Shown one piece after another: positions 8,430-53,827 of a stretch of DNA of 64,000 bases. This DNA comes from Nocardioides zeae. GTDB lineage: Bacteria > Actinomycetota > Actinomycetes > Propionibacteriales > Nocardioidaceae. The notes under the pieces were generated by a model that ran no database searches, was not told the DNA's origin, and worked only from the letters and a program-made list of their open reading frames with translations. Every line of letters starts with the position of its first letter. Position 1 is the stretch's first letter. The position numbers were made by a program, and so were the translations under genes. Location of the stretch: assembly GCF_030818655.1 (NCBI RefSeq), contig NZ_JAUTAN010000001.1:1302001-1366000 (forward strand). Direction: 5' to 3'.

Positions 8430-9091
8430 CAGCTCTCCTCCGGGCCGCGGTCGATGGTGCGGTAGGCGTGCGCGGCGTTCTCCTCGCGCATCACCAGGTG
8501 GAGGAGGTCGCCCTCCTGGATGACGCTCTCGCGGTGGGGCAGCTCGCCCTCGCCGAGCCGGTCCATCCAGGCGATGCGCGTGCGCGTCTGCTCCTGGAAG
8601 GCGACGGTGCGGTGGCCGACCCACGCGCCGGGGGCCGGCACCTGGTCGAGTCGGATGGTGCCGGACGGGTCGCGGAAGTCGGGCTCGGCGCCCGCGGGCA
8701 GCAGGCGTCGCAGCACCTGGTCGGCCGTCCACTTCACCGTGGCGACGGTGGTGATGCCGAGCCGCTGGTAGACCTCGGCGCGCCCGGGGTCGTAGATGCG
8801 GGCCACGACCTGCTCGAGCCCGAAGGACTCGCGCGCGACGCGCGCCGCGATGATGTTGGAGTTGTCGCCGCTCGAGACCGCGGCGAACGCGTCGGCGCGC
8901 TTGATGCCCGCCTTGACGAGCACCTTGCGGTCGAAGCCGACGCCGGTGATCTTGTCACCGTTGAACTCGGGCCCGAGCCGCCGGAACGCCTCGGACGCGA
9001 CGTCGATGATCGACACCGTGTGGTTGCGGTCCTCGAGGCTGCGCGCCAGCGTGGAACCGACGCGGCCGCAGCCCATGATCACGACATGCAC
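8429..9091 (-). CDS. TrkA-family potassium uptake regulator (CeoB-like)
   Basis: The first gene of the pair, 220 aa, with the Rossmann motif VVIMGCGRVGS, the acidic ligand in SIIDVAS and a TrkA-C domain near the C-terminus (EGELPHRESVIQEGD). The GTG at 9091 is chosen because HVVIMGCG is the canonical TrkA N-terminus and TACCGT lies 7 nt upstream, as in a leaderless message. It is divergent from the APC permease across 89 bp. Its likely role is nucleotide-dependent control of K+ (or related) transport together with the downstream paralogue. Confidence 0.9.
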   Translation of the reverse strand: MHVVIMGCGRVGSTLARSLEDRNHTVSIIDVASEAFRRLGPEFNGDKITGVGFDRKVLVKAGIKRADAFAAVSSGDNSNIIAARVARESFGLEQVVARIYDPGRAEVYQRLGITTVATVKWTADQVLRRLLPAGAEPDFRDPSGTIRLDQVPAPGAWVGHRTVAFQEQTRTRIAWMDRLGEGELPHRESVIQEGDLLHLVMREENAAHAYRTIDRGPEES

Positions 9092-9098
9092 GTGCGGA

Positions 9099-9104
9099 AC
9101 GGTA
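9099..9104 (-). promoter_or_regulatory. -10 box (TACCGT) for the TrkA pair
   Basis: TACCGT on the minus strand ends 7 nt before the GTG at 9091; a probable leaderless promoter. Confidence 0.5.
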
Positions 9105-9166
9105 GCCCAGCAGCGGTCCGTGTGGTGGATCACCGCCGCTGGCACCCGTGCGCCGTCTCCGACGCG

Positions 9167-9172
9167 TACCAT
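9167..9172 (+). promoter_or_regulatory. -10 box (TACCAT) for the APC permease
   Basis: TACCAT ends 8 nt before the GTG at 9181; a probable leaderless promoter. Confidence 0.45.
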
Positions 9173-9180
9173 CGCGCCTC

Positions 9181-11247
9181 GTGGGTCTTGCCGACGCCTC
9201 GAAACGGATCCTGCTGGGGCGCAAGCTCCGCAGCTCCCAGCTCGGGGAAACTCTCCTCCCGAAGCGCATCGCGCTCCCGGTCTTCGCCAGCGACGCGTTG
9301 TCGTCGGTCGCCTACGCGCCCGACGAGGTCTTCATCATGCTGTCGATCGCGGGGACGACGTCGTACGTCTTCTCCCCGTGGATCGGTGTCGCGGTCGCCC
9401 TGGTGATGACCGCGGTGATCGCGTCGTACCGCCAGACCGTGCACGCCTACCCGAGCGGGGGCGGCGACTACGAGGTGGCGAGCGTCAACCTCGGCCCCGC
9501 CGCCGGTACGACGGTGGCGAGCGCCCTGCTCGTCGACTACGTGCTCACCGTGGCGGTGTCGATCTCGTCGGGCTCGCAGTACGCCGCGGCGGCGATCCCG
9601 TTCCTGTCGGGGCACGAGGTGCTCTTCGCCTCCGCGCTCGTCGTCGTGCTCATGGCGCTCAACCTGCGGGGCATCCGGGAGTCGGGCAGCTACTTCGCCG
9701 TGCCGACCTACCTCTTCATGGTCGCGATCATCGGCATGGCGGTCTACGGTGGCTACCGGTGGGCGGTCGGCACGCTGCCCGAGGTGGAGAGCGCCGCGCT
9801 CGACGTCGTCCCCCGCGAGGGCTTCGAGGGCCCGCTGACCCAGTTCGCCATGGTCTTCCTGCTGGCACGGGCCTTCTCCTCGGGCTGCGCGGCGCTGACC
9901 GGCGTCGAGGCGATCTCCAACGGCGTCCCGGCGTTCACGCGGCCCAAGAGCCGCAACGCGGCCTCGACGCTGCTCATGCTCGGCATGATCGCGGTGACGA
10001 TGATGCTGTCGGTCATCCTGCTCGCCCGGGAGATGGGCATCCGCTACGTCGACCCCCACGAGCTCGACCGCCTCCGCACGGCGGCGGGGGACCCGATGCC
10101 CGACGGCTACGACCAGCACACGGTCATCGCCCAGATCGCGGGTGCGCTCTTCGCCGACTTCCCGCCGGGCTTCTACTTCGTCGTGACGATGACCGGCGTC
10201 ATCCTCGTGCTCGCGGCCAACACGGCCTTCAACGGCTTCCCGGTGCTCGGCTCCATCCTCGCGAAGGACGGCTTCGCCCCGCGCGCGCTCGGCTCCCGCG
10301 GCGACCGTCTCGCCTACAGCAACGGCATCGTCTTCCTGGCCGTCATGGCGATCGTGCTCATCGTCGCGTTCGACGCCCAGACCACCAAGCTGATCCAGCT
10401 CTACATCGTGGGCGTCTTCGTGTCGTTCAACCTGAGCCAGCTCGGCATGATCCGCCACTGGACGCGCCACCTCGCCACGGAGAAGGACCCCGGTCGCCGG
10501 CGCACGATGCAGCGGTCGCGGCTGATCAACGCGATCGGCCTGGCGTTCACGGCGGTGGTCCTCGTCGTCGTGCTGCTCACCAAATTCCTCGAGGGCGCCT
10601 GGATCACGATCCTGGCGATGACCGCGGCGTACTTCCTCATGCGCTCCATCCGGCGCCACTACGACCGGGTGGCGACGGAGATCGCGGCCGAGGAGACCGA
10701 CAAGGTCCTCCCCACCCGCGTCCACGCGATCGTGCTCGTCTCCAAGCTGCACAAGCCGACGCTCCGCGCGCTCGCCTACGCCAAGGCCTCGCGCCCCAAC
10801 GTGCTCGAGGCAGTCTGCGTGTCCACCGACCCGGCGGAGACCGACCGGCTGCTGGCCGCCTGGGACGAGCGCCGCATCGACGTGCCGCTCAAGGTGCTCT
10901 ACTCGCCCTACCGCGAGCTCATCAAGCCCATCGTCGACTACGCGGTGGAGATCCGGCAGGCCAACCCGCGCGGTGTCGTGGCGGTCTACATCCCGGAGTA
11001 CGTCGTGGGTCGCTGGTGGGAGCAGCTGCTCCACAACCAGAGCGCGCTGCGCCTCAAGGGCCGCCTGCTCTTCACGCCCGGCGTGATGGTGACGTCGGTG
11101 CCCTTCCAGCTCCAGTCCTCGGCCGTCGCGCTCGAGCGGGAGGACCGCCAGCTCACCCGCGTGCGTCCCGGCGACCTCCGTCGGGGTCGCGTGACGAGCG
11201 AGGAGGCGCCCGACCGGGTGCGTCCCCGCTCGCCGAGGCAGCGGTGA
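9181..11247 (+). CDS. APC superfamily permease with a large C-terminal cytosolic domain
   Basis: A 688-aa membrane protein. The first ~490 residues hold about 12 hydrophobic segments of amino acid-polyamine-organocation type, starting at FASDALSSVAYAPDE and including LRGIRESGSYFAVPTYLFMV. The last ~190 residues are soluble and resemble the USP-like tail of DUF/KUP-type APC transporters (VLVSKLHKPTLRALAYAKA). The family includes K+ and amino-acid transporters; the divergent TrkA-type regulators suggest cation transport, which is inference. It corresponds in position to Rv2690c. An alternative GTG lies at 9148. The stop overlaps the downstream methyltransferase start (GTGA). Confidence 0.88.
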   Translation: MGLADASKRILLGRKLRSSQLGETLLPKRIALPVFASDALSSVAYAPDEVFIMLSIAGTTSYVFSPWIGVAVALVMTAVIASYRQTVHAYPSGGGDYEVASVNLGPAAGTTVASALLVDYVLTVAVSISSGSQYAAAAIPFLSGHEVLFASALVVVLMALNLRGIRESGSYFAVPTYLFMVAIIGMAVYGGYRWAVGTLPEVESAALDVVPREGFEGPLTQFAMVFLLARAFSSGCAALTGVEAISNGVPAFTRPKSRNAASTLLMLGMIAVTMMLSVILLAREMGIRYVDPHELDRLRTAAGDPMPDGYDQHTVIAQIAGALFADFPPGFYFVVTMTGVILVLAANTAFNGFPVLGSILAKDGFAPRALGSRGDRLAYSNGIVFLAVMAIVLIVAFDAQTTKLIQLYIVGVFVSFNLSQLGMIRHWTRHLATEKDPGRRRTMQRSRLINAIGLAFTAVVLVVVLLTKFLEGAWITILAMTAAYFLMRSIRRHYDRVATEIAAEETDKVLPTRVHAIVLVSKLHKPTLRALAYAKASRPNVLEAVCVSTDPAETDRLLAAWDERRIDVPLKVLYSPYRELIKPIVDYAVEIRQANPRGVVAVYIPEYVVGRWWEQLLHNQSALRLKGRLLFTPGVMVTSVPFQLQSSAVALEREDRQLTRVRPGDLRRGRVTSEEAPDRVRPRSPRQR

Positions 11248-12760: not shown

Positions 12761-15571
<2,811 letters not shown>

Positions 15572-15587
15572 TCTCCCGGTCCCCCCA

Positions 15588-15627
15588 CCGACGGCCCGTC
15601 CCCGCACCCGCGGGGGCGGGCCGTCGG
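15588..15627. terminator. Strong hairpin between acnA and the DUF418-like gene
   Basis: An 18-bp stem with one G-T pair (15588-15605 with 15610-15627, CCGACGGCCCGTCCCCGC on the left) and loop ACCC lies between convergent genes. There is no U-tract, as is usual for high-GC actinobacterial terminators. Confidence 0.75.
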
Positions 15628-15644
15628 CGTACGACGAGGTCGGT

Positions 15645-16706
15645 CTAGCGCCGCACGCGGTCGACGCCCGCGGTGATGCCCCGGGCCAGTCCGCGCTCGA
15701 TCCCCTCGACGGGGCCCCGCGACCAGGGCTCCCAGCGCACCAGTCGCGGCCACAGCCACCCGAGCGCCAGCGAGCCCACGATCATCGCGGCCATGAGCCC
15801 CCAGGAGTCGTCGCGGAAGCCCGGTTCCCGGTCCTGGACCCACTGGTGGGCCACCAGGATCTGCACCACGTAGGCCGTGAGGGTGATCCGGCCGGCGTCG
15901 GCCAGGGGCCGCGCCGCGGCGGGCACCCACGTCGCCGCGAGCCGCACCGCCTGCACGACGGCCACGACGAGCACGACCTCGAAGGTCAGGACGGCCGGGG
16001 TCCCCGTGTACGGCGCCATGTCGAGCGTCCCGGCGCGCTGCGCGCCGATCATCCCGGCCGTGACGAGCGCACACCCCGCCAGGCTCGCGACGGTCACCAG
16101 CCGCCCGGCGTGCCGGGCGAGCACGATCGCGAGGCACGCGACCACGAGCATCGAGGTCAGGCGGTAGTAGGGGCCGGCGACCGCGAGCTCGAGGAGCCGC
16201 GGGTAGAGCCCGTCGGCGGTCTCGCCGGCCATCAGCCGCTCGAACCGCCAGTCGCGGAGCGCGGCGGCGGTGCTCGTCAGCAGCCGCGGCTCCAGCACGT
16301 AGAGGGCGACGGCGATGCCGAGCAGCGCCAGGTCGGGCAGCCGGACGAGCACGAGGCACAGCAGGGTCAGCGCGCCCAGCCAGACGAGGACGACCACGAT
16401 CTGCGCGTCGCTGCGCTCGAGCAGCAGGCCGATGCCGATGAGCGCCGCCGCCCGCACCAGCACGGCGACGACCTCGCCGTGGCGGCCGCGGCCCAGCTGG
16501 GCTCCCCACCCGATGAGGAACGCGAAGAGCGGCGCGGTGAGGTACTCGCTGAGGTCGAGGACGCCGCCGGGGCCGCCGCCGGGCGCGAAGTGCGCGACGA
16601 ACATCGACACGAGGGCCAGCCCGCGGGCCGCGTCGATGCCGAGGTCGCGGGCGCGGCCGGCGGTGGCGGAGTCGGAGCGGGACCCGAGGGGGAGGGGAGC
16701 GGTCAC
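15645..16706 (-). CDS. DUF418/DUF1624-like polytopic membrane protein
   Basis: A 353-aa protein with about ten hydrophobic segments. RDLGIDAARGLALVSMFVAH at the start is typical of the YeiB/DUF418 and heparan-alpha-glucosaminide acetyltransferase-like (DUF1624) group, and LTAYVVQILVAHQWV near the C-terminus fits DUF418. An acyltransfer role at the membrane is possible; the substrate is unknown. The GTG start directly abuts the stop of the preceding gene (TGAGTG), making this the last gene of a five-gene coupled operon whose first four members are two small/large gene pairs of unknown function. Confidence 0.75.
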   Translation of the reverse strand: MTAPLPLGSRSDSATAGRARDLGIDAARGLALVSMFVAHFAPGGGPGGVLDLSEYLTAPLFAFLIGWGAQLGRGRHGEVVAVLVRAAALIGIGLLLERSDAQIVVVLVWLGALTLLCLVLVRLPDLALLGIAVALYVLEPRLLTSTAAALRDWRFERLMAGETADGLYPRLLELAVAGPYYRLTSMLVVACLAIVLARHAGRLVTVASLAGCALVTAGMIGAQRAGTLDMAPYTGTPAVLTFEVVLVVAVVQAVRLAATWVPAAARPLADAGRITLTAYVVQILVAHQWVQDREPGFRDDSWGLMAAMIVGSLALGWLWPRLVRWEPWSRGPVEGIERGLARGITAGVDRVRR

Positions 16707-40982: not shown

Positions 40983-42242
40983 TCAGAGCAGCGGGCGCAG
41001 GGGGGCGAGCACGAACTCGGTGAACTTCCGGTGCGCCGAGCGTGCCTCCCACTCGGCGCTGTGCAGCTCGAGCGAGTGGCCCTGGTCGGTGAGGAAGATG
41101 GCCTCCATCGTCGCGGCGAACTGCTCGTCGATCACCTCGACGTTGACCTCGTAGTTGCCCTGGAGGCTGAGCCGGTCGACGTTGGCCGTCCCGACGGTGG
41201 ACCAGCTGCCGTCGATCGTCGAGGTCTTCGCGTGCACCATCGCCTCGCGGAAGCGCAGGATGCGCACGCCGGCGTCGAGCAGCTGGGAGTAGTAGCCCCG
41301 GGAGATCCAGTCGGCCACCACGTGGTTCGACTTGTGGGGGAGCAGCACGCGGACGTCGACGCCCCGGTTCGCCGCGCGCACGAGCGAGTCCACGAAGTCC
41401 TGGTCCGGGATGAAGTAGGCGTGCGTCATCCAGATGTGGTCGGTGGCGCGGTCGATGGCCTCGAGGTACATCGAGCGGATGGGGAACATCCACAACCGCG
41501 GGATGTTGCGGTGGATCCGGATGCGGGGTTCCCAGACCGACGCCGCCTCGAGGAGGAGCGGGCGCTCGCTGGAGCGGAAGCGCTTGCGCCGGTTGAGGTT
41601 CCAGAAGTCCGCGAAGGTGCGGGTGAGGTCCCAGACGCTCGGCCCGGTGAGGCGCACGTGGGTGTCGCGCCACTCGGTGGCGTAGGCGGAGCCGATGTTG
41701 TACCCGCCGACGAACGCGACCTCGTCGTCCACGACCAGGATCTTCCGGTGGTCGCGCCCGTACCGGCGGAGGTCCCAGAAGCGCAGGCCCGCGCTGTAGA
41801 CGGGGTAGCGCAGGACCTTGATCTCCGGCGGGAAGCGCTTGAAGCGGGGCGAGACGACGAGGTTCGCGAACGCGTCGTAGATGCAGTAGACCTCGACCCC
41901 GCGCCGGGCGGCGTCGACGAGTGCCGCCTTGAACCGCTCGCCGACCTCGTCGCCCTTCCAGATGTAGGTCTCGAGGAGGATCCGCTTCCGGGCGCCGGCG
42001 ATCGCCGCCAGCATGTCGTCGTAGAGATCCTGGCCGTAGGTGTAGACGGTCATCTCCCCGCCGCCCACCTCGTTGCTCGAGGGGGGAGTGGTGGGGAACG
42101 GGCGGGGCTTCTTGCCACGCCGCCGGTAGGAGTCCACGAGGGTCATCCCGATCGCGAGGGCGAACGGCACGCCGACCAGCGCGAGCAGCGTCCGGCGCAG
42201 GGCACGCAGCAGCCGGTCGGTGGGGGCGCCCCGGAGTCTCAC
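40983..42242 (-). CDS. Phospholipase D-superfamily protein, cardiolipin synthase-like
   Basis: A 419-aa membrane-anchored enzyme. One N-terminal hydrophobic segment (LLALVGVPFALAIGM) is followed by two HxK(x4)D motifs, DHRKILVVDD and VHAKTSTIDGSW, both complete. This is the ClsA/B type that condenses two phosphatidylglycerol molecules, or another phosphatidyltransferase. The GTG at 42242 follows a TAGGTT box by 6 nt. It converges with the mce operon. Confidence 0.88.
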   Translation of the reverse strand: MRLRGAPTDRLLRALRRTLLALVGVPFALAIGMTLVDSYRRRGKKPRPFPTTPPSSNEVGGGEMTVYTYGQDLYDDMLAAIAGARKRILLETYIWKGDEVGERFKAALVDAARRGVEVYCIYDAFANLVVSPRFKRFPPEIKVLRYPVYSAGLRFWDLRRYGRDHRKILVVDDEVAFVGGYNIGSAYATEWRDTHVRLTGPSVWDLTRTFADFWNLNRRKRFRSSERPLLLEAASVWEPRIRIHRNIPRLWMFPIRSMYLEAIDRATDHIWMTHAYFIPDQDFVDSLVRAANRGVDVRVLLPHKSNHVVADWISRGYYSQLLDAGVRILRFREAMVHAKTSTIDGSWSTVGTANVDRLSLQGNYEVNVEVIDEQFAATMEAIFLTDQGHSLELHSAEWEARSAHRKFTEFVLAPLRPLL

Positions 42243-42248
42243 GGACCC

Positions 42249-42254
42249 AACCTA
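42249..42254 (-). promoter_or_regulatory. -10 box (TAGGTT) of the phospholipase D-like gene
   Basis: TAGGTT on the minus strand ends 6 nt before the GTG at 42242; a probable leaderless promoter. Confidence 0.5.
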
Positions 42255-42390
42255 CCCAACCGCGGCGTCCGGGCGGCGGTGGGAGCCGTTGTCCGCCGCG
42301 GAGCGCCTGGGGGACGGTCTCCGGCGGATGTGGTTGGCTTCTGCCCGACAGGGTGGGACCGGGCTGGACGACGCGGGACGAGGGTTGTGG

Positions 42391-42774
42391 ATGACGGAGC
42401 GGGGCCGCGTGCTGGTCGTCGACGACGATGCCGACATCCGGGAGCTCGTCGCCATCGTCGTGGGGCAGCTGGGTGTCGACGTGCTGCAGGCCGGTGACGG
42501 GCTGACCGCTCTCGAGCTGGCCCGGCGCGAGTCGCCGCACCTCGTCACCCTCGACCTCGGGCTGCCCGACATCGACGGCATCGAGACGTGCCGTCGGCTC
42601 CGCGAGTTCTCCGACGCCTACGTGCTGATCCTCACGGCCCGCGAGGAGCGCGCCGACCGCGAGGTGGGCTCGGAGAGCGGGGCGGACCAGTTCATGAGCA
42701 AGCCGTTCGCGCCGAAGCAGCTGCGCGCGACGGTCCGCGAGGCGCTCGGTGCGCGCGGGGTCGAGCTGGCCTGA
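42391..42774 (+). CDS. Receiver-only response regulator
   Basis: A 127-aa CheY-like receiver with the acidic pair (VVDDDAD), the phosphoacceptor Asp in LVTLDLGLPDIDG, Thr in LILTARE and Lys in MSKPF. There is no output domain and no histidine kinase next to it. The receiver closely resembles that of the OmpR-type regulator at 53063 (both contain LREFSDAYV), which suggests one kinase could serve both. The ATG at 42391 lacks a good ribosome site. Confidence 0.85.
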   Translation: MTERGRVLVVDDDADIRELVAIVVGQLGVDVLQAGDGLTALELARRESPHLVTLDLGLPDIDGIETCRRLREFSDAYVLILTAREERADREVGSESGADQFMSKPFAPKQLRATVREALGARGVELA

Positions 42775-46302: not shown

Positions 46303-48921
46303 TCAGCGGGGGATCACCGAGAAGAGGAAGCGCTTCTTCACCATCACCCAGATGAGCGCGAGCACGGCCGTGTGGACGAGCGTCCCCTGCCACCACGAGC
46401 CGCGGTCGAGGCCGGGGATGTTGCCGACCGCGAGCACGAAGAACACGTGCACGATGAAGACGTAGAGGCTCGCCGCGCCGAGCGGGATCCAGAACCAGCC
46501 GACGATCTTGTCGATGGGCTTCCACATGGTGGTGAGCACCGCGTAGGCCACGATGATCATGAGGACCAGGTCGAGGAGACGGCCCGGCTGCAGGAAGACC
46601 CGGGTGTAGGCGTTGTCGTAGAGCCAGCCGTAGGAGCCCTCCGGGAACGGTGAGGCGGAGTAGCCGTAGGTGTGCGCCAGCCACAGCCACACGAGCGCGC
46701 CCGCGTAGGCGAAGACGAACACCGCGCAGCCGATCTTGCCCGCTCGGCTCACCAGGGCCTGCGTCACCTGGCGTCGGTAGACGCCGAGCACGAGGCCGTG
46801 GGTGAAGGCGATCTGCCAGGTGAGCAACGGGAAGACGTCCTCGAACTGCGACGGCAGCACGTGCACCTCGGAGATCGAGTTCCACACGAACAGCGCCCAC
46901 GACACGGCCAGCACCAGCCACCACAGGCCGCGCTTGATGAACCACATCAGCACCGGGAGCAGCAGGCTGAGCACCACGAACAGCCCCATGATGTTGAAGA
47001 CCCACGGGCCCATCTCGAGCAGCAGCAGCTGCTTGACGGCGTACCACGGCGGCGGGTAGTCGAACAGGCGCGGAGCGTTGGCGTAGAGGTCGTAGACCTG
47101 CCCCGTCACCGCCTCGCCGTTCTCGCCCGTCCCGCGGTCGGTGAACGTCGTGATCACCGTGGCGTCGACGAACGGCAGCAGGCCGAGCAGGTAGACGAGC
47201 ATGACGACGACCAGCGCGACGAGGTACTGCTTGCGTGCGCGCTTCCACATCGTCACCGCCGTGACCCACTCGCCCAGCTTCCGCACGGTGGGGAGGTAGA
47301 TCATGCCGAGCACGATCCCGGAGAGCAGCACGAACATCTCGGCGCCGGTGATGGCGCCGACGGCGTTGAGGGTGATGTAGGAGTACGGCGACGTCACCTC
47401 GACGTGGGTGATGACGACGGCGAGGATGATCCAGCCGCGGAAGAGGTCGAGACGCTGGTCGCGGGGGTCGTTCTCGTTCGGGTAGCGCCAGGACGGCACG
47501 TACTTGCCGGCGATGCCGGCCAGGAGGAAGAGGACCGCGAGCACCGCGACGCAGAAGACGATCCAGCCCATCTCGGCGCCGATCTCGTCCGCGGCCGGCT
47601 GCCGGCCCTGGGCCGTGGCCTCGTTCGCCGCCTCCTGGTCGAGGACCCGGGTGACCGGACCGATGTCGACGCGGTCGGAGCCCAGGTCGGCCCGGAGGGC
47701 GTCCGCGAGCTCGTCGGTGCGCGTGGCCCGCCAGTCGACGACCCGGTCGTCCGCCTCGGCCTCCGGCCGACGCTGCTCCAGCCAGGAGATGCCGCGGACG
47801 AGCGGGTAGTCCGCGTTGGCCTCGAGGACCTGCTCCCACCACCCCTGCTTGATGGCGACCTCGGGGTCGCCCTCGCCGTCGGGGATCCAGAGGGCGCCGG
47901 TCTCGACGAGCATGGGCTTGTCGTACGTCGCGGCGAAGCGCTCGTAGAACGGCGTGCCCCCGCCGCCCTGGTTGTAGTTGAAGCGCTCCTCGAGCCGTTC
48001 GCGGTAGGCGTCGGGGGTGGCCACGCGGTCGAGCTCGAAGCCCTCGCTGGTCTCGAGGTCGCCGGTCTCGCCGTCGCCGTCGAGACCGAGGTCGTTGTCG
48101 ATCCGGCCCCGGTCGGGCCCGAAGTGGTAGAGCGTGAGCCCGACCCAGTCGACGACGTCGTCCCCCGGCCAGTAGGGCCCGTAGGGGTCGTCACCCTCGT
48201 CGAGGCGGCCGTTGTCGTCGGTGTCGAGCTCGCCCGCCTCGGTCATCCGCTCGGGGTCGACGTCGCCGTAGGCCGCGCCGTACGGGTAGCCCGCGCCGTA
48301 CACCGGCGCCCAGACCATCGCCGCGTGGGGCGTGGCCGCGTGGACCTGGTCGGCGACGGTGCGGAAGGCCTCGACGTACGCCCGCGGCTGCTGGCCCCAG
48401 CCGTACCAGGTGCCGTTCATCTCGGGGGCGAAGCGCACGAGGAAGTAGGTGTCGAGCTCGCGGTGGAGCTCGACGAGGTCGTCCGTGAACGCCTCCGCGT
48501 CGTCCTCGGTGAGCTCCTCCAGCGGGACGACGGGCTCGAGGCTCACGACCGCGACGGCACCCTGGGTGGCCGCCTGCTCGACGAACTGCCGGAGGTAGGT
48601 GCGGTCGTCCTCACCGAGGGGGTAGTTGACCCGCTGGGTGTAGAGCGAGGGTGACGCGCCGAGGCGGTTCGCATAGTCGGCGGCGGAGTCCTCGGTCCAC
48701 GTCAGGCTCGGACCGAACCACGGGCTGCCCGCGGCGGGCAGGCCCGGGGGCGCGTCGTCGTCGGCGGCCGACGCCGGGGGTGCCCACGAGAGCAGCCCCG
48801 CGACGAGCCCGAGCACGGCGAGGAGGAGCGCCGCGCGCACGGAGCGCGGTCGGGTCGGGGATGCGGATGCGGATGCGGCGGGCGCCGTCGACGGCGCCGG
48901 TGTCACGGTCGGCGCTCGCAT
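46303..48921 (-). CDS. GH26-like glycoside hydrolase fused to an OpgC-type membrane acyltransferase
   Basis: An 872-aa fusion. Residues 28-52 are a signal peptide (ALLLAVLGLVAGLLSW...ASA). Residues ~60-385 form an extracytoplasmic GH26-like (beta-mannanase) TIM barrel: RFAPEMNGTWYGW carries the acid/base Glu (E167) and KPMLVETG the nucleophile (E340). An EF-hand-like loop (DTDDNGRLDEGD, 233-244) is probably a calcium site. A membrane helix at ~451-472 is followed by an OpgC domain with about ten spans (QRLDLFRGWIILAVVITHVE). OpgC proteins acylate or succinylate glycans. Last gene of the phosphatase/GT2 operon; its ATG overlaps the anti-sigma gene by 19 bp. It probably trims and acylates the polymer made by the GT2. 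Confidence 0.8.
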   Translation of the reverse strand: MRAPTVTPAPSTAPAASASASPTRPRSVRAALLLAVLGLVAGLLSWAPPASAADDDAPPGLPAAGSPWFGPSLTWTEDSAADYANRLGASPSLYTQRVNYPLGEDDRTYLRQFVEQAATQGAVAVVSLEPVVPLEELTEDDAEAFTDDLVELHRELDTYFLVRFAPEMNGTWYGWGQQPRAYVEAFRTVADQVHAATPHAAMVWAPVYGAGYPYGAAYGDVDPERMTEAGELDTDDNGRLDEGDDPYGPYWPGDDVVDWVGLTLYHFGPDRGRIDNDLGLDGDGETGDLETSEGFELDRVATPDAYRERLEERFNYNQGGGGTPFYERFAATYDKPMLVETGALWIPDGEGDPEVAIKQGWWEQVLEANADYPLVRGISWLEQRRPEAEADDRVVDWRATRTDELADALRADLGSDRVDIGPVTRVLDQEAANEATAQGRQPAADEIGAEMGWIVFCVAVLAVLFLLAGIAGKYVPSWRYPNENDPRDQRLDLFRGWIILAVVITHVEVTSPYSYITLNAVGAITGAEMFVLLSGIVLGMIYLPTVRKLGEWVTAVTMWKRARKQYLVALVVVMLVYLLGLLPFVDATVITTFTDRGTGENGEAVTGQVYDLYANAPRLFDYPPPWYAVKQLLLLEMGPWVFNIMGLFVVLSLLLPVLMWFIKRGLWWLVLAVSWALFVWNSISEVHVLPSQFEDVFPLLTWQIAFTHGLVLGVYRRQVTQALVSRAGKIGCAVFVFAYAGALVWLWLAHTYGYSASPFPEGSYGWLYDNAYTRVFLQPGRLLDLVLMIIVAYAVLTTMWKPIDKIVGWFWIPLGAASLYVFIVHVFFVLAVGNIPGLDRGSWWQGTLVHTAVLALIWVMVKKRFLFSVIPR

Positions 48922-49340
48922 CGCAGGGTCCACACGTTGCGGCTCCCCACCCGCTCGTAGGACAGGTCGTCGAGCGCCGCGACGGCCAGGGCGAGCCCCC
49001 GGCCGCTCTCGGCGTCGGCGTCCGGCATCGCCACGTCGCTCAGGTCGAGCGCCGCCGGCTGGCCGTTGTCCTCGATGCGTCCGTGCAGGCCACCGTCGCC
49101 GTCGCCGTCGACCTCGACCGTGAGCCGACGCTCGTGGGCGCGGGCGTCGGCCGCGTAGGCGTGCTCGACGACGTTGCCGAGGATCTCCATGAGCGCGGTC
49201 ACGAACCGCAGTCGCTCCCCGGCACCGACGTCCGGGTGCTCGGACCACGCTGCGTCGAGGGCGTCGTGCGCGGTGTCGAGCGCCTCCGGGTCCGCGGGCA
49301 GCTCGAGACGGGCGACGGGACGCCCGGTCGGCTCAGACAT
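48903..49340 (-). CDS. RsbW-type anti-sigma factor/serine kinase
   Basis: A 145-aa GHKL ATPase. The N-box is in ALMEILGNVVEHAY, the G1 box in IEDNGQPAALD and the G2 box in GRGLALAVAAL. RsbW-like proteins bind and inhibit a partner and phosphorylate the STAS antagonist. The STAS gene precedes it with 8-bp overlap and a PP2C phosphatase is two genes up, so the full partner-switch set is in one operon. No sigma factor gene is nearby; the target could instead be the GT2 or a distant sigma factor. Confidence 0.88.
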   Translation of the reverse strand: MSEPTGRPVARLELPADPEALDTAHDALDAAWSEHPDVGAGERLRFVTALMEILGNVVEHAYAADARAHERRLTVEVDGDGDGGLHGRIEDNGQPAALDLSDVAMPDADAESGRGLALAVAALDDLSYERVGSRNVWTLRCERRP

Positions 49341-49665
49341 CGAAGGCGCTGGCGACGTCCGGCCGGGGCCGGAGCACCTTGTCGATGTTGGTGAGCTGGA
49401 AGACGGCGAGCACCTCCGGCGTCGGCCGCGCCACGCGCAGGTCGCCGCCGGCCTGGCGGGCCGCCTTGAGGCCGCTGACGAGCGCGCCCAGCCCGGAGGA
49501 GTCGAGGAAGGTGGTCTCGCCGAGGTCGACGACGACCCGGTTGGTGCCGGCGCCGACGACCCCGGCGAGCGTCTCGCGGAGCTGCTTGGCGGCCACCATG
49601 TTGAGCCGGCCACGCGGCACGACGATCGCGATACCGCGTTCGGTGGACACGTCGATCTCGATCAT
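49333..49665 (-). CDS. STAS-domain anti-anti-sigma factor
   Basis: A 110-aa RsbV/SpoIIAA-like protein. The phosphorylatable serine is in TTFLDSSGLGALVSGL. The N-terminus IEIDVSTERGIAIVVPRG is a typical STAS beta strand. Its ATG overlaps the GT2 stop by 4 bp (ATGA). Dephosphorylated by the phosphatase, it would sequester the kinase at 48903-49340. Confidence 0.92.
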   Translation of the reverse strand: MIEIDVSTERGIAIVVPRGRLNMVAAKQLRETLAGVVGAGTNRVVVDLGETTFLDSSGLGALVSGLKAARQAGGDLRVARPTPEVLAVFQLTNIDKVLRPRPDVASAFDV

Positions 49666-51695
49666 CGGGCTCCTTCAGGGGTGTCGGGCGGGGAGGAGGG
49701 TGGGGAGGAGGACGCCGCGGGTGGGTCGACCCCGTCGGTACCCTCCGCGCTCGCGGCGAACCCGCGGTAGCGCACGGCCTGGATGATCACGGAGAAGATC
49801 ACGAGGTCGAACACGACCCAGATCATGTTGAGCGACGTGCCGAGCCAGGAGGCCTGTCCGGCGGCGAGCCGCACGACGCCGACGGCCGCGGCGAGCACCA
49901 GCAGTCCCATCGCGACGAGCTGGGGACGGACGAGGTCCCACCGCTGCACGGTGGACTCCTTGGCCACCTTGGGCGTCACCGAGAAGTCGAGGGAGCGGCC
50001 GAGGAAGACGTTGAGGAAGACGTTGCCGAAGGCCGAGGTGACGGACTTGATCCAGACCGGGAACAGCGCGAGGGAGTACTGCTGGCCCCGCCACGTCGGT
50101 CTCCCCGCCGCGGCCACGAAGAACAGGAGCTGGTTGAGCACGAGGAACGGCACCAGCCGCCAGAAGAAGTCGGAGCTGAGCGCCTGGACGGGGAGCACGC
50201 CGATCGTCAGGTAGATGACGGGTGCCGCGATGTAGACGAGCGCCGCGAAGCCGGAGAGGTAGCTCCACATCGTGGCGAAGTACATGAGCCGCTGGGGCCA
50301 CGACAGACCGCGCTGGGTCAGCGGGTTCTCCCGGAACATCACCTGCGCCGTGCCCTGCGCCCAGCGGAGGCGCTGCGTGAGCATCGACTCCAGGTCCTCC
50401 GGCGCGAGACCGTGCGCCAGCACCTCGTCGTGGTAGACCGTGCGCCAGCCGAGACCGTGGATGCGCATGCAGGTCGCCATGTCCTCGGTGACCGAGATGG
50501 TCGCCATGGGCATGACGGGGATGGCCTCGCCGGACCGGTCGACGTCGATGGACCGCACCAGCGCCTCGACGGCCTCGATGGCGCCGAGGGGGGACAGGTC
50601 GCGCGCCGTGACGCGGTCGAGGCTCTCCAGGCTGACCGATGCGAGGGTCTCGTCCGACTCGCCGAGCGCCTCGAGCTGGGCGATGACCTCGAGGTCTGCC
50701 GCCACGAGCTGGAGGTCGGCCGCCACGAGCTGGCGACGGATCTCCGCGACGCGGGCCTGGAACCGGTAGGTGACGTCGAGCAGTGCCCCGCCGCGGTCGA
50801 TCTCCCGCTGGGCCCGGCCCACGTCGTACAGGACCTCGTCGAGGGCGGTCGCCACGGCCGCGTCGTCGGGGCCGAGGTCCTTCCGCGCGGTGGTGAGGAC
50901 GGTGCGCGCCGAGCGCAGTGCGCGGGTGACGCCGAGGGTGGTGTCGTGCACGTAGCGGGCGATGCCGACCTGGATGAGCGCCTCGCGCCGGATGACCGCG
51001 TTGGAGCCGCAGAAGAAGGCCGCGTTCCAGCCGTCCTTGCCCTGCTGGATCGGACCGTAGAAGAGCGGCGCCTGGCTGCCCAGGGGGTCGGACTCCGGCA
51101 CGTTGACGAAGTACTGCGGCGTCTGCACCAGCGCGACCTCGTCGTCGGTGAAGTAGCCGAGGGTGCGGTCCAGGATCTCCGGCACCGGGATCTGGTCGGC
51201 GTCGAGGATGAGCAGGAACTCGCCGTCGGTCGCCAGCAGGGCGTTGTTGAGGTTGCCGGCCTTCGCGTGCCGCGGCATGCCGACCCACTCGGGCGACCGC
51301 GTGATCCACCCGATGCCGAGCTCCTCGGCGAGCGCCTGCATCTCCGGACGGTTGCCGTCGTCGAGGATCCAGGTGCGGTGGGGGTGCCGGATGGCGACCG
51401 CCGCCACGGCGGTGTCGCGGACGAGCTCGACGGGCTCGTTGTAGGTCGTGATGAACACGTCGACGGTCGCCTCGGGGTCCGGCGTCGGCGGGTCGCCGCG
51501 CTCCTTGAGGCGCCACATGGTCATCCCGAAGAGGAGCGAGTCGACCATGCTGTAGGTCTCGGCCAGGATCAGCGGGACGGCGATCCACCACGCCGACCAG
51601 TGCACCGAGAAGAGCCACCGCCAGGTGATGTAGTTGATGCCCAGCAGCGCGGTCAGCACGACCACGCAGCGGAGAAGCACCAGGCGCCGCGTCAC
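49662..51695 (-). CDS. Cellulose synthase-like family 2 glycosyltransferase
   Basis: A 677-aa membrane processive GT2. Two N-terminal spans precede the catalytic domain with TTYNEP (84-88), LDDGNR, LDADQIP (DxD) , SVTEDM (the TED motif, ~402) and QRLRW (~441-445), then about five to six C-terminal spans. Between SNAVIRREAL (231-240) and TED there is an insert of about 150 helical residues (245-398) containing QLVAADLQLVAADLE; in usual bacterial cellulose synthases this stretch is short. There is no PilZ domain, so control by cyclic-di-GMP in the usual way is unlikely. The GTG at 51695 overlaps the phosphatase stop (GTGA). Confidence 0.88.
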   Translation of the reverse strand: MTRRLVLLRCVVVLTALLGINYITWRWLFSVHWSAWWIAVPLILAETYSMVDSLLFGMTMWRLKERGDPPTPDPEATVDVFITTYNEPVELVRDTAVAAVAIRHPHRTWILDDGNRPEMQALAEELGIGWITRSPEWVGMPRHAKAGNLNNALLATDGEFLLILDADQIPVPEILDRTLGYFTDDEVALVQTPQYFVNVPESDPLGSQAPLFYGPIQQGKDGWNAAFFCGSNAVIRREALIQVGIARYVHDTTLGVTRALRSARTVLTTARKDLGPDDAAVATALDEVLYDVGRAQREIDRGGALLDVTYRFQARVAEIRRQLVAADLQLVAADLEVIAQLEALGESDETLASVSLESLDRVTARDLSPLGAIEAVEALVRSIDVDRSGEAIPVMPMATISVTEDMATCMRIHGLGWRTVYHDEVLAHGLAPEDLESMLTQRLRWAQGTAQVMFRENPLTQRGLSWPQRLMYFATMWSYLSGFAALVYIAAPVIYLTIGVLPVQALSSDFFWRLVPFLVLNQLLFFVAAAGRPTWRGQQYSLALFPVWIKSVTSAFGNVFLNVFLGRSLDFSVTPKVAKESTVQRWDLVRPQLVAMGLLVLAAAVGVVRLAAGQASWLGTSLNMIWVVFDLVIFSVIIQAVRYRGFAASAEGTDGVDPPAASSSPPSSPPDTPEGAR

Positions 51696-52891
51696 GAGCC
51701 GCACCGGTAGACGGCGAGGACCGTGACGTCGTCGAGGGGCGCCCGCCGACGGGTCAGGCCCCGCACCTCGTCGAGCAGCGCCGTCGGCGTGGGGGAGCGG
51801 CGCACGACGAGGTCGATCTCCGGCCAGGGGTCGAGCGGGTCGTCGAGCACGTCGAGGATCCCGTCGCTGACGATCACGAGGCGGTCGCCCGGGTCCAGCA
51901 CGGACGTGTGCTCGCTCCAGTGGTCGTCGGGGAGCACCCCGAACGGACGGTCCTCGCCGGCCAGCACCTCGTACCCGCCGCCGGCGCGCACGATGACCGC
52001 GAGGCCGGCGCCGGCGTCGACCCACCGGGTGTAGCCGTCGTCGAGGTCGACCGCCGCCTCCGTCAGGGTGAGGAACGCGCCGGCCCCCTCGAGGTCGGGC
52101 AGGAGGCTGCGCGCCACCTGGGTGGCGACCACGCCGAGGTCCGCCCCGGCGACGACGGCCTGGTGGGTCGCCCGCACCGCCGACCGCGCGCCGGCGCCGA
52201 GCAGGGCCGCGCTCGTGCCCTTGCCCATGACGTCCCCGACGCCGAGGTGCAGCACGTCGCCCCCGACGCCGTAGTCGAAGAAGTCACCGCCCACCGCGAG
52301 GGCGGGGAGGCAGAAGCCGTCGACGAGCCAGCCGTCACGGTCGACGGGGGTCGTCGGGAAGAGCGCCGACTGCACCTGGCGCGCCTGTCCCATCTCGCTC
52401 GACGACACCAGCTCGTGCTCGGCCCAGGCGGCGAGGTCGGCGAGGTCGGCCCGCTCCTCGTCGTCGAGGTCCCGCCTGCTGCCGTGGAACAGGCAGAGCG
52501 TGCCGACGACGTTGCCGAGGTGGTCCTTCAGCGGGTGGCCGGCGTAGAAGACCACGTCCCCTCCCGCGACGACGGGCAGCGAGCTGAACCGCTCGTCGCC
52601 CCGGGCGTCGGGCACCACCATGGGCTCGCCGAGGGCCTGCGTGGTGTGGCAGAAGGTGTCCCGGCGCGGCAGGGTGCCCGTCGGCAGGCCCTGCGCGCTC
52701 GGCAGCCACGCGTGGCGCGCGTCGAGGAGGGTGATCGAGGTCGCGTCGACGCGGAACAGCTTGCGCGCGAGGCGGGTGATCCGGTCGAGCTGCTCGTGCG
52801 CAGCGTCGACGGCGTCGGCGATGCCCGCCGCAGCACGCTCGCGCGCCGCGGCTTCCTCGCCCGACCTGACTTCGGGTACGACGTCGTCCAC
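51692..52891 (-). CDS. GAF-domain PP2C (SpoIIE-type) phosphatase
   Basis: A 399-aa cytosolic phosphatase. Residues ~30-165 form a GAF sensor domain (ITRLARKLFRVDATSITLLD...FYAGHPLKDHLGNVVGTLCLF). Residues ~185-399 are the PP2C/SpoIIE domain with ALAVGGDFFDY and GVGDVMGKGTSAALLGA (metal-binding Asp residues) and DGILDVLDD. It should dephosphorylate the STAS protein. It is the first gene of the operon and diverges from an OmpR-type regulator across 171 bp. Start is the GTG at 52891. Confidence 0.92.
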   Translation of the reverse strand: MDDVVPEVRSGEEAAARERAAAGIADAVDAAHEQLDRITRLARKLFRVDATSITLLDARHAWLPSAQGLPTGTLPRRDTFCHTTQALGEPMVVPDARGDERFSSLPVVAGGDVVFYAGHPLKDHLGNVVGTLCLFHGSRRDLDDEERADLADLAAWAEHELVSSSEMGQARQVQSALFPTTPVDRDGWLVDGFCLPALAVGGDFFDYGVGGDVLHLGVGDVMGKGTSAALLGAGARSAVRATHQAVVAGADLGVVATQVARSLLPDLEGAGAFLTLTEAAVDLDDGYTRWVDAGAGLAVIVRAGGGYEVLAGEDRPFGVLPDDHWSEHTSVLDPGDRLVIVSDGILDVLDDPLDPWPEIDLVVRRSPTPTALLDEVRGLTRRRAPLDDVTVLAVYRCGS

Positions 52892-53026
52892 GCCCTCTTC
52901 TCCGCTCCCTCAGAACAGCGCCCGGAGGCGCAGCGGTGTCGGTGACGAGTGCCACGCTAGCGTGGCCACCACAGGAGACCGCGCGGCGCCATCCGGTTGC
53001 CGCCTTTTTTCCTCAAGAACGACGAA

Positions 53027-53046
53027 ATCGGTCCGAAGATATCGGT
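53027..53046. promoter_or_regulatory. ATCGGT direct repeats in the divergent promoter
   Basis: ATCGGT occurs at 53027-53032 and again at 53041-53046, 14 bp apart start to start, in an AT-richer stretch between the phosphatase operon and the response regulator. CCGA/TCGG arms lie between. A possible binding site for the OmpR-type regulator itself. Confidence 0.3.
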
Positions 53047-53062
53047 ACATCGAGGAGGTGAG

Positions 53063-53827
53063 GTGGCCGTGGCCGACGGGACGGCGAACCCGGAGCAGCG
53101 TACGGTGCTGGTGGTCGACGACGACCCCGACCAGCGGGAGCTGGTCGCCGTGGTGCTCGGCGGCGTGGGCTACCGGATCGAGGAGGCCGGCTCGGGGGCC
53201 GCGGCCGTGGAGGCGACGCGCACGCACGCGCCCGACCTCGTCACGCTCGACCTCGGTCTGCCGGACATGGACGGCACCGAGGTGTGCCGCGCCCTCCGTG
53301 AGTTCAGCGACGCCTACGTGATCATGCTGACGGGCCGCGCCGACGAGTCGGACCGGTTGATCGGGCTCGACGTGGGGGCGGACGACTACATGGTCAAGCC
53401 CTTCTCGCCGAAGGAGCTGCGGGCCCGCGTGGCCGCGGTGCTGCGCCGTGCACGACCGGCCGCCGAGCGTCCCGTGCCGGCGCCGATGGTGGCACCGACC
53501 TCCGTGGTCGACCCTGCCCGCGGCCTCGTCGTGGTGCCGGACCGCGAGCTCGCCCTCGTCGAGGGCGTCCCGCTCCCGCTGACCGGTGCCGAGGTGCTCG
53601 TGCTCGCCGCGCTCGCGCGTGAGCCCGGGCGGGCCTGGGAGCGGCGCGACCTCGTGCGGGCCGTCTGGACCGAGGAGTTCGGCGAGTCGCAGTTCCTCCT
53701 CGACGTCCACGTCGGCAACCTCCGGCGCAAGCTCCGCAAGGCCGGGGTGCGCGAGGAGTGGATCCGGAGCGTCGGGGGCACGGCCTACGCGTTCATCCCG
53801 AGTCGGCCCACGGATGCACCTGACTGA
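53063..53827 (+). CDS. OmpR/PhoB-type response regulator
   Basis: A 254-aa regulator. The N-terminal receiver has VVDDDPD, the phosphoacceptor in LVTLDLGLPDMDG, Thr in IMLTGRA and Lys in MVKPF. The C-terminal winged helix ends with FLLDVHVGNLRRKLRK and VGGTAYAF, so it binds DNA. An AGGAGGTGA sequence (53053-53061) is a near-perfect ribosome site; GTG 53063 or 53069 may be used. No sensor kinase is adjacent. It probably controls itself and the divergent polysaccharide operon. Confidence 0.9.
   Translation: MAVADGTANPEQRTVLVVDDDPDQRELVAVVLGGVGYRIEEAGSGAAAVEATRTHAPDLVTLDLGLPDMDGTEVCRALREFSDAYVIMLTGRADESDRLIGLDVGADDYMVKPFSPKELRARVAAVLRRARPAAERPVPAPMVAPTSVVDPARGLVVVPDRELALVEGVPLPLTGAEVLVLAALAREPGRAWERRDLVRAVWTEEFGESQFLLDVHVGNLRRKLRKAGVREEWIRSVGGTAYAFIPSRPTDAPD

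Follow-up and report, generated by a model that had tools for sequence, protein, structure and literature searches.

What does a partner switch of the PP2C-STAS-RsbW type control when its genes lie in one operon with a polysaccharide synthase and away from any detected sigma factor? The question is raised by a five-gene operon (46303-52891, minus strand) in a stretch of 64,000 nucleotides of the Nocardioides zeae genome, hereafter the window; the genome is a single contig of 4.38 Mb and 97.8% complete. In order of transcription, the genes encode a GAF-PP2C serine phosphatase, a BcsA-like processive glycosyltransferase of family GT2, a single-domain STAS protein, an RsbW-type serine kinase, and a protein joining a GH26-like domain to an OpgC-type membrane acyltransferase (Table 1). 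We lean towards the answer that the output of the switch is the BcsA-like synthase and not a sigma factor. This reading rests on the gene order, its linkage across genomes, co-occurrence, intact catalytic motifs, the lack of detected PilZ and GGDEF domains and the position of an insert within the synthase, and also on the predicted helical shape of this insert.

An earlier note, made from the DNA alone, had described five genes on one strand with overlaps of 4-19 bp, and the measured overlaps were 4, 4, 8 and 19 bp. Its gene identities agreed with the Pfam calls (GAF and SpoIIE, GT2, STAS, HATPase_c_2 and OpgC_C), the GH26 part being recognized by structure search, and its GT2 without PilZ stood as well, since Pfam called none. 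Also borne out was the statement that no sigma factor is encoded nearby. A search for Sigma70_r2, which left sigma-54 aside, gave no match in the window and 23 in the genome, the nearest at about 351 kb from the module; the stretch from 618 kb to 1706 kb, which includes the module at 1348-1355 kb, is free of them.

Table 1. Features of the partner-switch and synthase operon, in order of transcription (positions in the window)
Feature	Position	Strand	Properties
GAF + PP2C (SpoIIE-type) serine phosphatase	51692..52891	-	399 aa; Pfam GAF 55.9 bits, SpoIIE 94.7 bits
BcsA-like processive GT2 synthase	49662..51695	-	677 aa; Pfam GT2 with plant-type Cellulose_synt; no PilZ
Helical insert of the GT2, proposed docking site	50502..50963	-	154 residues, between FFCGSNAVIRREAL and the catalytic TED; from alignments
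Single-domain STAS protein with DSSG phosphorylation motif	49333..49665	-	110 aa; Pfam STAS 66.2 bits
RsbW-type GHKL serine kinase	48903..49340	-	145 aa; HATPase_c_2 52.8 bits
GH26-like domain fused to OpgC-type membrane acyltransferase	46303..48921	-	872 aa; OpgC_C 177.8 bits

The association of the switch with the synthase was examined in related genomes. In a family sample of 294 genomes, drawn evenly from a larger group, the search yielded 59 GT2 orthologs with identities of 56-100% (that of the window included) and 21 places with a GT2 lacking the insert. The comparison took in the loci of the 58 other family orthologs, 80 named loci of species genomes, chosen from at least 536 relatives, and, at class level, seven loci with the insert as well as one remnant. 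After removal of six duplicates, 140 distinct insert-bearing loci remained (59 family, 7 class, 74 named), of which 139 were informative: L132 was excluded because it lies at a contig edge, and the broken remnant L136 was not counted. The STAS and kinase genes were located directly downstream of the GT2 gene and on the same strand in 132 of the 139 (family 58/59, class 6/6, named 68/74), three of these, L032, L099 and L171, being counted as linked because the genes overlap. The linked loci span Nocardioides, Microbacterium, Cellulomonas, Rhodococcus and Arthrobacter, and a PP2C gene lies just upstream of the GT2 gene in 119 of the 140. Neither STAS nor kinase was found within the 5-8 kb per side examined at 15 insert-less GT2 loci (12 of the 21 family places and three from the phylum). 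The tie between switch and GT2 proposed in the earlier note was thus upheld, and the finding named there as contrary to it, a trio regularly separate from the GT2 in relatives, did not appear.

All seven exceptions retain the kinase subfamily in their genomes. In L047 (genome G033) a stand-alone PP2C-STAS-kinase operon lies about 1.4 Mb from the GT2 gene, and in L189 (G1009, Arthrobacter agilis) a separate set of REC-PP2C, STAS and kinase, REC denoting the response-regulator receiver domain, is present in trans. L201 and L219 are second GT2 copies in Arthrobacter, where the other copy has STAS and kinase; in L204 and L207 (Kocuria) STAS and kinase are on the opposite strand about 5 kb away, and in L200 (Pseudonocardia) kinase and PP2C are on the opposite strand, adjoining STAS. 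Of the 140 insert-bearing GT2s, the 139 open to checking are therefore all found in genomes with the kinase. Among the 294 family genomes, 59 carry both GT2 and kinase, none the GT2 only, 3 the kinase only and 232 neither. No kinase profile score falls between 109 and 52 bits except in G291, where the kinase is broken into two frames (90 and 71 bits); this genome was counted as having it.

In a tree of STAS-kinase sequences, the stand-alone sets of G033 and G046 cluster with a linked locus from their own genus (support 0.97). The set of G106 has a long branch next to a Cellulomonas-like group (0.84), and that of G1009 falls among Arthrobacter-like loci (0.57). Since the stand-alone trios nest among the linked ones, separation looks secondary, with the reserve that the branch of G106 is long and the support for G1009 is only 0.57.

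Two further arrangements were noted among these loci. L136 (G605), positions 9000-10399, is a remnant of a broken module in a genome of 1.6 Mb, with a fragmented GT2 and part of a PP2C. In L239 (Arthrobacter sp. ISL-30), a PP2C-STAS-kinase set at 13648-15764 (minus strand) lies beside an intact GT2-STAS-kinase set, and about 50 residues of a GT2 C-terminus remain near the start of its STAS gene.

Could the trio instead be an ordinary switch for a sigma factor or transcription regulator encoded elsewhere, with the GT2 gene merely a co-transcribed target? No catalytic part of a classical switch is lacking, the genome offers its 23 Sigma70_r2 matches, and two genomes have the whole trio without the GT2. 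On the other hand, there is no sigma-70-type factor within 350 kb, and none of the 14 open reading frames scanned beside four stand-alone trios was called as a sigma factor, although 9 of the 14 gave no Pfam call of any kind. The trio, moreover, stays with one synthase clade, while a sigma switch of general function should also be seen in GT2-less members of the genus; among 20 such genomes the kinase subfamily was found in none at 60 bits, with one match of 50 bits. We regard control of a distant regulator as unlikely, yet as the foremost competitor to control of the synthase.

Several observations weigh against the synthase as the output of the switch. Any of the 23 Sigma70_r2 matches could be a distant target. 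G046 (L243) and G106 (L244), in which all candidates were scored, have a whole PP2C-STAS-kinase trio and no insert-bearing GT2, which counts against a trio strictly dedicated to the synthase, and G196 has a lone kinase without GT2. The kinase profile, having linked kinases as its source, is tuned to them, and the kinase count over the 294 genomes is based on 13 scored candidates per genome. Outside its own family the insert-bearing GT2 is patchy, being present in 8 of 394 class genomes, one of them the remnant, and absent from the 396 phylum genomes searched (GT2 profile, E <= 1e-60), where the three GT2s outside the family are all insert-less. Because insert and trio both mark one GT2 clade, their going together comes near to a single evolutionary event, and linkage by itself accounts for most of the co-occurrence, which is confounded by descent as well; the few unlinked genomes are its independent part. 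Shared ancestry likewise dominated a mean-field direct coupling analysis of 135 paired loci (effective number of sequences 80 at 80% identity), in which the positive control, the STAS-kinase pair, did not stand out, so that the coupling signal is unusable. Correlations of tree distances were 0.56 for GT2-STAS, 0.55 for GT2-kinase and 0.53 for STAS-kinase, no pair being prominent. Finally, the binding of STAS or kinase to the insert is a step that we infer, as are the phosphorylation cycle and the sign of its effect.

The switch proteins themselves have intact catalytic motifs. In the phosphatase, which is predicted to dephosphorylate the STAS protein, the metal-binding Asp residues are kept in 128-131 of 131 sequences. 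Its input domain was GAF in 8 and a response-regulator receiver in 4 of the 12 phosphatases scanned besides that of the window, and REC-PP2C proteins without kinase domain occur in L196, L133, L216 and L240. The variable input domain indicates that different signals feed into a constant set of STAS, kinase and GT2. In the kinase, the E/N of the N-box is kept in 134 and GRG in 135 of 135 sequences, with a variable G1 box (Asp 118/135, Gly 86/135); it matches RsbW (6m36) at 35.4 bits in a profile search, and NCBIfam has no family for it or for the GH26-OpgC protein. The GT2-STAS-kinase order in 132 of 139 loci, together with the kept catalytic residues, excludes a chance arrangement. The mean identity is 0.55 for STAS as against 0.37 for the kinase, which slightly favours STAS as the output protein. 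In L241 (Microbacterium ureisolvens; 8751-10613, plus strand) STAS and kinase share one frame of 621 codons, being either fused or read as one protein.

The STAS protein matches TM1442 and SpoIIAA, and its DSS motif, with the putative phosphorylatable serine, is present in 135 of 135 sequences. The residues aligned to the acidic pair of the SpoIIAA 'GELD' motif, which we take to be Glu21 and Asp23, are Arg/Lys in 135 and Asn/Thr in 130 of the 135. Such residues at acidic positions fit insulation from sigma-type switches, and this suggests, as far as sequence comparison can tell, that the STAS-kinase interface is private to the module. In SypA of Vibrio fischeri two aspartates are reported to face arginines of the kinase (PMC10120452), and in our own alignment these occupy the same two positions.

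The GT2 is BcsA-like, with the whole synthase fold and the catalytic and gating-loop motifs; DD, DxD, TED, QxxRW and FxVTxK are kept in 134-135 of 135 sequences. Its nearest NCBIfam family is the UDP-forming cellulose synthase, at 337 bits under a cut-off of 699 bits. As for BcsB, Pfam called it in none of the five open reading frames of the operon, and no search aimed at BcsB was made. The GT2 profile matched 3092 of 8000 scored proteins at E <= 1e-100, counted irrespective of the insert; the enzyme family is thus large. Pfam annotation of the best 120 of these 3092 relatives showed neither PilZ nor any natural fusion of GT2 with STAS or kinase.

The insert was mentioned only in passing in the earlier note, as a cytosolic insert; what was missing there is its length, its place before TED and its link to the trio. 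In the model it forms helices at 236-271, 278-299 and 304-343, with stretches 344-366 and 386-399 of low confidence. It is missing from all 15 GT2s of the insert-less class. In the window GT2 a single Pfam Cellulose_synt match runs across it, whereas the best match of each of the 15 insert-less GT2s to this profile begins at profile position 414-420. The insert has the position that the class-specific region has in plant CesA. By this likeness, the insert could be a structural or oligomerisation element, with the trio working by transcription or otherwise than through the insert; the Cellulose_synt match speaks for such a role. Against it stands the kinase, adjacent or elsewhere in the genome, at 139 of 140 insert-bearing loci, a count confounded by common descent, and we hold a purely structural insert to be improbable. 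Among the insert-less GT2s, those of L059, L060, L068 and L070 are in open frames of 1096-1498 codons, and in L070 an acyltransferase and an SGNH domain share the frame.

If the synthase is the output, does the switch take the place of cyclic di-GMP (c-di-GMP), as the earlier note suggested? Besides the window GT2, PilZ was not called by Pfam in the GT2s of L135 and L202 or in P0002, and neither GGDEF nor PilZ gave a match in the N. zeae genome, while control searches were positive in 8 and 5 of 14 genomes, respectively. The suggestion gains from L137-L139, the insert-less GT2s closest to the insert-bearing ones, all of which have PilZ; it loses from the rest, because only 4 of the 15 insert-less GT2s have it (the fourth is L069; the other 11 are without). 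The rule that the insert generally replaced PilZ was rejected for this reason.

For control of the synthase by the switch, the following sequence of events is proposed. Without signal, the kinase would phosphorylate the STAS serine. On activation of the GAF domain of the phosphatase, or in some relatives of its receiver domain, STAS would be dephosphorylated, and the contacts between the proteins would change. As a first guess, unphosphorylated STAS would bind the helical insert, in a manner similar to SypA; as a second, the free kinase would bind it, as an anti-sigma factor does. Either protein on the insert, next to the TED loop, might open or close polymer synthesis, and the switch would then do the job of PilZ and c-di-GMP in classical BcsA. 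Such a scheme would account for the control of a BcsA-type synthase in an actinomycete whose genome yielded neither GGDEF nor PilZ. To the broader proposition, that a widespread c-di-GMP-independent control exists in actinomycetes, in which a STAS/RsbW switch docks on a helical insert in the catalytic domain of a BcsA-type enzyme, positioned like the class-specific region of plants, and directly gates beta-glucan synthesis, we give an even chance.

The fifth gene does not belong to the constant set. The earlier note had treated the five genes as one unit, which does not hold: with a threshold of 60 bits, GH26-OpgC was detected close to 43 of the 59 family loci and 4 of the 74 named ones, but close to none of the 7 class loci. 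It is an accessory part of the operon. Its GH26 domain has no Pfam call. The GH26 fold was recognized from the modelled protein (pLDDT 84), whose 21 best PDB matches (E 5e-9 to 3e-5) are mostly GH26 enzymes by entry title, the remainder presumably being GH26 enzymes as well; family 26 lichenases are among the best matches. E167 of FAPEMN is invariant in 29 sequences and E382 is also invariant, while E340, on a later strand, becomes D or Q in relatives; the acid/base and the nucleophile may be among these three glutamates. A BcsA-like core with GH26 and OpgC suggests a beta-glucan, perhaps trimmed and acylated in some species; from these domains the polymer is probably a beta-glucan and perhaps acylated.

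Might the trio, then, act on another step of polymer formation, such as precursor supply, export or the membrane acyltransferase? The overlap of the GH26-OpgC gene with the kinase gene in the window and its presence near the 43 family loci would fit, as would low-scoring matches to glycoside hydrolases (21-42 bits) that lie upstream in L129-L131 and in a small number of named loci. Given that 70 of the 74 named loci and all 7 class loci have no GH26-OpgC nearby at 60 bits, and that the one gene common to all loci is the GT2, if by way of locus choice, we consider action on another step very improbable. As a general target of the switch, GH26-OpgC itself was rejected on its patchy presence: being dispensable, it is not the general target.

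Some neighbouring genes may be added. A response regulator gene (receiver and Trans_reg_C; 52997-53827, plus strand) is divergent from the PP2C gene and may control the operon; of the 58 family loci compared, 24 have a similar regulator right next to the PP2C gene, and 2 more have one a few genes off. A second receiver gene (42220-42774, plus strand) lies about 3.5 kb past the end of GH26-OpgC, next to a gene that we take to be uvrB. As to a defence system, PADLOC gave no match for any of the five operon proteins.

How does the module compare with known systems? It shares with RsbU/RsbV/RsbW and SpoIIE/SpoIIAA/SpoIIAB of Bacillus the same three protein types and catalytic motifs, and differs from them in that neither the operon nor its surroundings encode a sigma-70-type factor, and in the Arg/Lys and Asn/Thr that stand in place of the acidic STAS residues that contact the kinase. 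With BcsA it shares the synthase fold and the catalytic and gating-loop motifs; unlike BcsA, it has the 154-residue insert before TED, no PilZ, and a genome in which no GGDEF was found.

SiaA/B/C/D of Pseudomonas is reported to be a partner switch controlling a diguanylate cyclase (PMC8457831, PMC7647112); SiaC acts on the cyclase and hence through c-di-GMP, whereas no cyclase was found in the genome studied here. In all4160 of Anabaena, a STAS domain and a glycosyltransferase are joined in one protein (PMC8256260), unlike the GT2 relatives here, the best 120 of which show no STAS-GT2 fusion in Pfam annotation. HmpU/V/W of Nostoc punctiforme is a partner switch controlling motility and polysaccharide, with the target of HmpV unknown (PMC8256260). 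SypA of V. fischeri acts below transcription, again on an unknown target (PMC10120452, PMC8256260, PMC4517449), and the target of STAS in sigma-less partner switches is stated to be open for both SypA and HmpV (PMC8256260, PMC10120452). The terms STAS, anti-sigma and OpgC are absent, by term search, from the main text of a survey of biofilm-machinery operons (PMC7112194). The literature searched, in which few subscription papers were covered, contained no description of an actinomycete STAS/RsbW switch associated with a BcsA-like enzyme and no system of the same composition, in agreement with the earlier note, which knew of none. Within that literature, the parts of the module are known, and its constant enzyme partner, insert and breadth are undescribed.

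In its logic, the module comes closest to SypE/SypA among known systems. In both, the STAS protein is subject to a serine kinase and a PP2C phosphatase and is encoded in a polysaccharide locus, and the output is not, or here probably not, a sigma factor; SypE is a single kinase-REC-PP2C protein, while three separate proteins are found here. The polymer of the syp locus is made by a different gene set. Unlike SypE/SypA, the switch described here has as its constant neighbour a particular synthase, BcsA-like and enlarged by a further domain. With a single enzyme and a single additional domain in this position, the question of the STAS target reduces here to a single binding experiment, and if the synthase is indeed the output, a membrane enzyme would take the seat of the sigma factor in the partner switch.

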